This document shows, piece after piece, positions 61,645 through 62,739 of a DNA stretch of 64,000 nt. The notes under the pieces are model-generated. The model ran no database searches. It was not told the origin of the DNA and saw only the letters and a list, made by a program, of their open reading frames with translations. The position numbers and the translations under genes were made by a program. The stretch is from Lepidurus packardi (taxonomy: Eukaryota; Arthropoda; Branchiopoda; Notostraca; Triopsidae): NCBI GenBank assembly GCA_023053545.1, contig JAKZAN010000274.1, positions 1 through 64,000 on the forward strand. The letters run 5' to 3'. Numbering within the stretch: the stretch's first letter is position 1; every line of letters starts with the position of its first letter.

Positions 61645-61788
61645 TCCGGTAGGAGAGGATAGAAAGGCAAATTGGCCAACCCCGGATGGGTTTCAGTGTG
61701 CAACGATTCACCAACCAAATATGCCAGTTTATGAGCATACTGACAAGGAGCTGGAACACGCAAAGTACCCTGCCAGTTGTAATACAAG
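61645..61788 (-). pseudogene. Shifted-frame C-terminal end of the Piwi fragment
   Basis: This is the part of the Piwi fragment after the internal deletion, readable in the frame open from 61,835 to 61,635. It starts with [19 protein letters not shown], the C-terminal PIWI block with the catalytic His, and runs to LANLPFY plus a few extra residues before a stop at about 61,635. PIWI proteins normally end a few residues after this point, so the fragment reaches essentially the natural C-terminus and the homology ends near 61,660, close to the env junction. Confidence 0.85.
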
Positions 61789-62739
61789 AGACACCGTGCC
61801 TTGAGTAACGAATTGTGAAACAAGGAAGAAGTCATAACGTTCGGGCAACGTGATTACATAATCGATAACAACGCCGGGCTTAGGATTAGCTGGCCTCCCA
61901 CCCGCACTCATAATGCGAGTGTTCAGACGTTTGTTCACAAGAATTACAACCAACTTGGGATCATAACCCGCATTTGTACCTTGAAAAGCCGCTCTCAAAG
62001 AAGCGATCTCCTGCATCTTTACGTATGGAACGTCACCGGACCCTACACCATCGCGATAATAGAATATTTTGTCTGGCAACGCGTTATTCTCTTTTTGATA
62101 CACCAGAAGAGACTTCCTCATGCAGATTCCGATCTTCGAGCACAACTCTTCGTTGTTTCCATGCAGTACGACAGTTGAATGATATTTTGTCATAGCTTGG
62201 TTAATGGAAGCTATGAAGGCGCCAACGCCGCGCTTCTGCCCCTTGTCATGATATGTGTCGAAACCTAAGGCCATGGCCCCGGTAGGCAGGATTCTTACTC
62301 GCCACGCCTCGCATCCCAACTTGCAGGCCATTTGGATGTAGACTTTGGTTGCGACAGACAAGCCCTTCTTCAAAATTCTTCCCGTAATGACCTGGCTTGG
62401 AATCGCATTTTCGCACGTCAGGAGTTTCTCAACGGCAGCATACGTATCGGCGCGTTGAGACTTCAAGAGAATCAGTATAAACTCAGGCCCCTTTGGAATA
62501 ATGTTGGCGAGCTGAGCCACATATGCTTGAGGCATATCTCTCTCCAACGGAAACCTTGCAGCTGCATTCAGGTTCAGCACTAGACCCATATTTGCCACTC
62601 TGCTTAGGCTTCCCAGGAACTCATTAAGCTCTCCTTCCATCATCTTCGGATATACAATGGCCAATTTGGTGAGCTTCATAGACGCCAAGAAAGTCTTGCC
62701 TCGCCCGTATCTACAAAAATTTCTCTTCTGTGCCCGCAT
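61645..62739 (-). pseudogene. piwi-like: PIWI-clade Argonaute fragment (MID-PIWI), antisense in the LTR element
   Basis: The minus strand has a 336-codon frame (62,739 to 61,729). Residues about 12-50 match the linker and start of MID. Residues about 125-145 (LSVATK ... IQMACKLG) carry the K...Q...K residues that bind the guide 5' phosphate. Next come GFDTYHD with catalytic Asp161, a Glu-containing NNEEL segment, YYRDGVGSG with catalytic Asp230, and the [20 protein letters not shown] block typical of the PIWI clade. After QGTVS the frame breaks at about 61,788/61,789: some 28 residues normal in this family are missing. The rest, including QYAHKLAYL with the catalytic His (codon 61,733-61,731), continues in another frame to a C-terminus close to the family's FYL end. 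N-terminal and PAZ domains are absent. No intron is seen, which suggests an mRNA origin. Piwi and Aubergine paralogues cannot be separated here. Family assignment is very secure; whether it is expressed is unknown. Confidence 0.92.

Follow-up and report, generated by a model that had tools for sequence, protein, structure and literature searches.

Retroviruses take up cellular genes, as in oncogene transduction, and captures by retroviruses and LTR elements are usually described in sense orientation. Among LTR retroelements, gene capture is exemplified in one review by maize Bs1 (PMC13317346). Few transposons are described as carrying sequence against the silencing machinery of their host, TART-A with its piece of nxf2, miR820 and Athila6 being named in the TART-A report (PMC7785250). 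TART-A is a LINE of Drosophila melanogaster with a piece of nxf2 in its 3'UTR, carried by nine copies of the element in the reference genome; its element-antisense piRNAs are reported to be antisense to nxf2, on the basis of piRNA, degradome and expression data (PMC7785250), an account that implies an element-sense cargo. In rice, miR820 is a microRNA of a CACTA transposon for which repression of OsDRM2 and co-evolution have been reported (PMC3459959). Finally, a study of Tirant sequence lying antisense in host 3'UTRs reports that a cytoplasmic transcript carrying an antisense fragment is enough for piRNAs to be made in the Drosophila ovarian soma, and ties this production to a high uridine content (PMC13226689).

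Here we analyse a window of 64,000 nucleotides, the first 64 kb of the 67-kb contig C263 of Lepidurus packardi, together with searches of the genome (108.6 Mb in 344 contigs). Within env of an endogenous retrovirus-like element in this window lies, antisense, a truncated copy of a spliced piwi mRNA, which was captured once and then came to lie at no fewer than five loci bounded by LTRs. The complete reading that we favour, with a probability of about 0.7, is that this 5'-truncated copy, after its single capture and spread, has been trimmed by splicing and is mainly a passenger.

As reported for TART-A, part of a piRNA-pathway gene was captured after divergence from relatives and is found in several copies of the element, with repression of the gene as the proposed benefit. 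The preliminary description had called such a cargo a new type, whereas TART-A with nxf2, on its published account (PMC7785250), is already a retrotransposon with a captured fragment of a piRNA-pathway gene. The present case nevertheless differs from TART-A: (i) the carrier is a retroviral LTR element and the cargo lies within env; (ii) the cargo has the opposite orientation, being antisense, not element-sense, in the carriers found; (iii) the target is the Piwi gene; (iv) most of the copies found lack the cargo; and (v) the case is known from DNA alone. Like miR820 in its reported relation to OsDRM2, the cargo belongs to a transposon and is complementary to one of the host's silencing genes, but there it is the microRNA of a plant DNA transposon and here a long antisense cDNA for which the evidence is one of sequence. 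With Bs1, as reviewed, and with retroviral transduction it shares a cellular sequence that lies between LTRs and is propagated, while differing from captures of the Bs1 type in being antisense and, apparently, splice-trimmed in the element's direction. As described for Tirant, piRNAs could be seeded by a chimeric transcript, part of which is antisense; there, however, the transcript is the host's, its antisense part is viral and the host gains, whereas here the transcript is viral and its antisense part comes from the host. No antisense piwi-carrying retrovirus was found in the literature searched, which was covered by titles and the beginnings of abstracts and left most subscription papers outside its scope. 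The phenomenon is known in kind from TART-A/nxf2 and miR820/OsDRM2, and what is new is piwi as the target, the antisense cargo and the retroviral carrier.

The element occupies positions 54244-63449 and is surrounded by a 20-bp satellite (Table 1). This satellite fills 15-54244 (~2,728 copies) and 63455-63998 (~27 copies), and the carrier on contig C30 lies in the same satellite. The LTRs are paired, and we interpret the sequences flanking the window copy as a target duplication of 4 bp altered at one position; TGGCGCAGCCGG we take to be the primer-binding site. The element has reverse transcriptase, RNase H and integrase, the integrase core being found only in the relative L041 on contig C38 (rve, E 2.6e-14): pol of the window copy has no Pfam match to it, and 658 nt are missing there at the 59357 join. 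The ORF that follows this gap has no Pfam family above its cut-off. The 366-aa env part of the window likewise matches no env family in Pfam when taken alone, and a protein search with it gave zero homologues at E 0.001 from 2,177 candidates. The assignment to the baculovirus F family comes from the copy L049, whose open env frame matches Baculo_F (PF12259) with an E of 1.8e-18 (66.9 bits vs a cut-off of 24.1). This single frame continues uninterrupted across the site of the window's insert, which therefore lies inside env and not, as had been stated earlier, between env and the polypurine tract. A further ~490 nt of env, including the membrane segment, that come next after the resumed env stretch in the empty copies are missing from the window. 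Taken together, the domain matches point to an errantivirus-like endogenous retrovirus, Ty3/gypsy with an F-type env.

Table 1. Features of the element in the window, ordered by position
Feature	Position	Strand	Details
5' LTR (TGTAAGA...TCTTACA)	54244..54697	+	454 nt; 6 differences to 3' LTR
Primer-binding-site-like TGGCGCAGCCGG	54700..54711	+	two bases past 5' LTR
gag-like ORF	54740..56119	+	Retrotrans_gag E 0.0037, under curated cut-off
pol ORF	55993..59358	+	RVT_1, RT_RNaseH, Integrase_H2C2 (Pfam): RT, RNase H, integrase zinc-binding domain
ORF with part remaining downstream of integrase gap	59355..60263	+	ORF list
env-like ORF, N-terminal part	60376..61476	+	frame broken vs related copies
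Left junction	61657..61660	+	env donor GAGAGG joined to antisense piwi ATAG
Captured piwi cDNA (MID and part of PIWI)	61659..62701	-	1,043 nt; host-gene and empty-copy comparison
80-nt gap site in antisense piwi	61787..61788	+	missing stretch GTGAGT...CCGTAG
env resuming past cargo	62702..62882	+	comparison with empty copies
Polypurine tract AATGGGGGAAGTGA	62982..62995	+	directly before 3' LTR
3' LTR	62996..63449	+	454 nt; flanks GAAT / GAGT

The insert encodes a PIWI-type MID and PIWI domain. Its minus-strand frame (61729-62739) is open for 336 aa, residues 87-317 match the Pfam family Piwi (PF02171, E 2.9e-51), and its best solved relatives belong to the PIWI clade, with Siwi at 7.3e-62 vs 4.5e-16 for the best AGO-clade chain; antisense MID and PIWI domains of this clade between the two LTRs are what the preliminary description had proposed. 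PAZ is absent, and only the MID and most of the PIWI domain are present: the first ~13 residues of the frame are antisense env and not piwi, and an 80-nt gap relative to the host exon shifts the frame beyond residue 317, so that the last catalytic residue of PIWI presumably falls in the out-of-frame C-terminal end. The supposed origin from a host gene was borne out, since the parent is located in the same genome at C5:6491391-6492720; it has two GT-AG introns (149 and 57 nt), across which the piwi reading frame is continuous, and its exons are identical to the insert at 100% of 149 nt, 98.57% of 769 nt and 100% of 114 nt. Both introns are missing from the insert, which must therefore have passed through sense mRNA. 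Six places in the genome besides the cargo match the Piwi family, and C5 alone is close to the insert in DNA. The best named relatives of the host Piwi are Daphnia proteins (~48%), with Artemia at 47% for the C-terminal part; these matches suggest a branchiopod crustacean other than Daphnia, so that the insect setting invoked earlier does not apply. Two more Argonaute-like loci lie on short contigs, C191:55236-56279 and C299:38688-39575; the several internal stops in the C191 match reflect either introns or a pseudogene.

A DNA search identified 10 copies of the element without piwi (two on C16, three on C5, two on C162 and one each on C4, C86 and at C2:10953k) and 7 copies, at 6 loci, with some piwi; these counts are lower bounds, with LTRs at further loci (e.g. 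C1, C49, C137) falling outside them. At five loci, on C263, C3, C30, C38 and C88, both LTRs flank the piwi sequence, and the sixth, on C2, has two identical copies ~8 kb apart with ~30 nt of piwi each. The copies on C2 (L044 and L045, at C2:10711186 and 10719233) are ~3.4 kb long and 100% identical, and in them the 30 nt of piwi are joined to what by eye is a LINE-like ORF, to env and to an LTR. The cargo is thus not confined to a single copy, which would have spoken against the earlier proposal, as would a mis-assembly. That the assembly wrongly joined piwi to the element is almost certainly untrue: C263 is a 67-kb contig lying in satellite, and its left junction and 80-nt gap are present there only, but the right junction between piwi and env recurs on C3 and C2, and C30, C38 and C88 are further carriers.

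All five LTR-bounded carriers share states that the host gene lacks. C263 and C3 have four of them in common (61970, 62338, 62344 and 62478), and C30, C38 and C88 share the three that they cover; these shared states argue for one capture, and C263, C3 and C2 have the same right piwi junction. The carriers on C30, C38 and C88 have a compact form with two piwi blocks, AT-rich filler and a tandem duplication, alongside ~122 nt of env. In these copies (L042, L041 and L043, respectively) the filler within the piwi remnant is (ATAATA)-like and a piwi block is duplicated.

Differences between paired LTRs, compared for six pairs and a partial pair from C3, amount to 0/432 in C30, 3/429 in C38, 0/326 in C3 (partial) and 6/454 in C263 among carriers, and to 1/454 in C86 and 2/454 in C5b among non-carriers. 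Target duplications were found for C30 (ATTC), C38 (TCGG) and C3 (TGTC), with 4-bp duplications also at C86 and C16a; the C5b pair has no matching 4-bp flanks. The two LTRs of C16a (C16:875687-876140 and 884544-885005) both have GTGC flanks and yet differ at 50/454 positions, so that LTR identity is no strict clock in this family; C16a, which was left out of the dating, has the look of a single insertion in which exchange or conversion has altered the 5' LTR. To judge from the LTR pairs, the carriers have most likely moved recently. By LTR identity they are as young as the empties, and this counts against our preferred explanation. C3 has LTRs that diverge by 0.7-1.8% from the LTRs of the empties, C16a_5 excepted, whereas those of the other carriers are ~2-5% away, and the histories of cargo and LTRs therefore differ in part, presumably by recombination; this point, too, tells against our reading. 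We do not claim an LTR clade of all carriers: C30, C38 and C263 group with a support of 0.976 and C3 joins them at 0.517. Two rearrangements were also seen: a ~6.4-kb insertion (at about C3:2233162-2239526) with an 8-bp duplication (GAAGCCAT) interrupts the 3' LTR of the carrier on C3, and a 155-nt LTR piece recurs every ~1.76 kb in LTR-derived tandem arrays at C2:786495-795569 and C23:18877-24289. The placement of the C263 and C30 insertions in 20-bp satellite, possibly heterochromatin, would suit a carrier that benefits the host, by self-regulation of piwi or as a small-RNA locus kept by the host; we consider this highly improbable, as there are several young insertions at unrelated sites and no sign of one retained locus.

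The left junction of the insert has the form of a splice made in the element's own direction. Empty copies read GAGAGG/GTAAGTGG here, with GTAAGT as the donor sequence that follows the join, the antisense host gene reads TTTATAG/ATAGAAAGG, and the window reads GAGAGG/ATAGAAAGG; the env donor GG/GTAAGT is joined to an acceptor TATAG/ in antisense piwi. Both this junction and the 80-nt gap, which also begins and ends as an intron would (Table 1), have one other equivalent alignment each. For comparison, random joins were generated, 400,000 per class, for element-to-host joins from two pools and for internal deletions of 50-300 nt. The strict pattern GTRAGT/AG arose in 0 and 0 of the 400,000 element-to-host joins and in 42/400,000 internal deletions, and the loose pattern GT/AG in 1,436 and 1,456 (the two element-to-host pools) and 1,821 (internal deletions) per 400,000. 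A copy without piwi, L020 (C5:11320402-11320659), lacks exactly 108 nt relative to L049, GTAAGT...GAGTAG, from the same env donor; L020 looks like a spliced retrocopy. Of the 10 non-carriers, 9 show the env donor site without interruption and with the same sequence along 36 nt, and the tenth is L020. Because of the exact GT-AG joins, the random-join control and the independent use in L020, we consider it very probable that the env donor functions as a genuine splice donor, and trimming of the cargo by splicing in the element's direction is strongly indicated by these joins.

The course of events that we propose is as follows. Piwi cDNA with some 3'UTR would first have sat antisense within env; splicing of the element RNA would have joined the env donor to an AG within antisense piwi and also removed the intron-like 80-nt stretch; and reverse transcription and insertion of this spliced RNA would have made permanent the shortened arrangement that the window shows. 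A genome search for an unspliced precursor with the host 3'UTR or the 80-nt stretch returned the host gene and the window copy only. Two observations count against the splicing part of our reading: the evidence from the left junction and the 80-nt gap rests on one copy, and GT-AG ends are lacking from most of the family's other testable gaps. Splicing was rejected for the gap 61440/61915 of C38 and C88 (not GT-AG, 3 nt of homology), for 62882/62953 of C3 and the ~490-nt env gap of the window (neither GT-AG, both with filler), and for the right piwi junction (not GT-AG, 2 nt of homology). Mismatches at the join were met in the splice test for C3 60707/61865, C38 60298/61319 and L048, and the anchor was missing for C30 and L047. 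The 658-nt integrase gap of the window relative to L041 is GT/AG, with a weak donor GTCTGA and the acceptor ACAG, and may be a third splice; its joined form was found in no other copy, and it is given no weight here, because several gaps were examined and a loose GT/AG arises by chance in ~0.4% of joins.

The gaps that are not GT-AG imply that ordinary reverse-transcriptase jumps also happen in the family, and an origin in one step, without splicing, can be conceived on these lines: during plus-strand synthesis the reverse transcriptase would have jumped onto piwi mRNA and back, the 80-nt gap being an internal jump. Such jumps would give the antisense orientation directly and would explain the missing introns; homology at the joins is short (1 nt at the left junction, 1 nt at the 80-nt gap and the 2 nt at the right junction), the 61440/61915 gap shows that non-splice jumps are known in the family, and C3 60707/61865 shares ATAACAAC by eye. 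However, strong GT-AG sites coincide exactly with the left junction and with the 80-nt gap, and L020 makes use of the env donor; we regard an origin by jumps alone as improbable.

What the cargo does, if anything, is a separate question. Since capture, 7 private changes have accumulated in C263 (including 61860, which is outside the coverage of C3) and 4 in C3, and 9 of these 11 are non-synonymous; the four sites at which both differ from the host comprise two synonymous and two non-synonymous changes. To judge from these substitutions, coding changes after capture look unconstrained. That the minus-strand frame yields a short MID-PIWI protein, acting as a dominant negative or a decoy, is accordingly very improbable in our estimate. 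The frame is open in the window, and in C3 too (309 aa), but recent age alone accounts for this; besides the non-synonymous changes, the absence of PAZ and the out-of-frame C-terminal end, C38 has no minus-strand frame that reaches 90 aa, and C30 and C88 retain the same short blocks only.

Across the carrier copies the cargo shrinks from 1,043 to 30 nt. When exact runs to the host mRNA of 21 nt or longer are summed, the totals are 1,013 nt for C263, 813 nt for C3, 226 for C30, 217 for C38, 197 for C88 and 21 nt for C2, and this is a picture of erosion. The piwi sequences of C263 and C3 differ at 10/837 positions (1.2%), about as much as upstream env (~1.3% with gaps) and more than downstream env (1/181), which likewise speaks against a retained antisense role. 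We therefore regard the cargo as most likely a passenger with no selected function, which would be kept since env is dispensable for movement within the genome and would be eroding meanwhile. Two points count against the passenger reading: piwi is an unlikely chance hit among expressed genes, although many genomes were scanned, and in C30, C38 and C88 two piwi blocks persist although only ~122 nt remain of the env shared with the window. The observed features do not separate selection from drift.

The opposing view is the one put forward initially, that the element RNA yields small RNAs that repress piwi and ease the silencing of the element. This could happen if slicing by the host led to phased piRNAs running into the antisense piwi located 3', or if pairing with piwi mRNA fed Dicer. 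Any transcript across the cargo would unavoidably be antisense to piwi mRNA, and some small RNA against piwi may arise; as had been anticipated, a transcript from the 5' LTR would carry the 1,013 nt in exact complementary runs given above. The target is the Piwi gene, the orientation and the 3' position fit, the carriers have spread, and at least one of them, C30, is very recent. TART-A and nxf2 provide a precedent (PMC7785250), and the report that cytoplasmic transcripts with an antisense fragment start piRNA production in the Drosophila ovarian soma makes the idea a reasonable one in principle (PMC13226689). On the other side, (i) it is the element-antisense piRNAs of TART-A that hit nxf2, as reported, and here the orientation of the cargo makes such piRNAs piwi-sense, so that they could not hit piwi mRNA and the TART-A route is closed; (ii) the cargo erodes, with 10 non-carriers against 5 carrier loci and one remnant locus, all lower bounds; (iii) less Piwi would free all elements, so selection on this one would be weak; and (iv) uridine is not abundant in the antisense RNA (T 0.258). 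Inverted repeats as a source of hairpins were rejected, piwi matching only itself within the window. With unconstrained-looking protein change, a cargo that is being lost and empties that outnumber carriers, an anti-silencing function is unsupported, and we judge it unlikely, if the least so of the alternatives. A slightly less likely variant still is that the retrovirus traded env for a splice-trimmed antisense piwi cassette whose slicing would lead to phased piRNAs or siRNAs against piwi mRNA.

The capture is real, and a disarming of the host by the cargo is, on these data, unproven. One and the same genome contains the source, a Piwi gene itself and still intact, together with a retroviral element, its recent carriers and relatives of these without the cargo. 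The splice-trimmed antisense capture, as we read it, is a clear record of an LTR element acquiring and processing host sequence in reverse. Were the anti-silencing idea true, it would represent an animal counter-defence at Piwi itself, in an orientation opposite to that of TART-A, in which silencing would feed back on the silencer.
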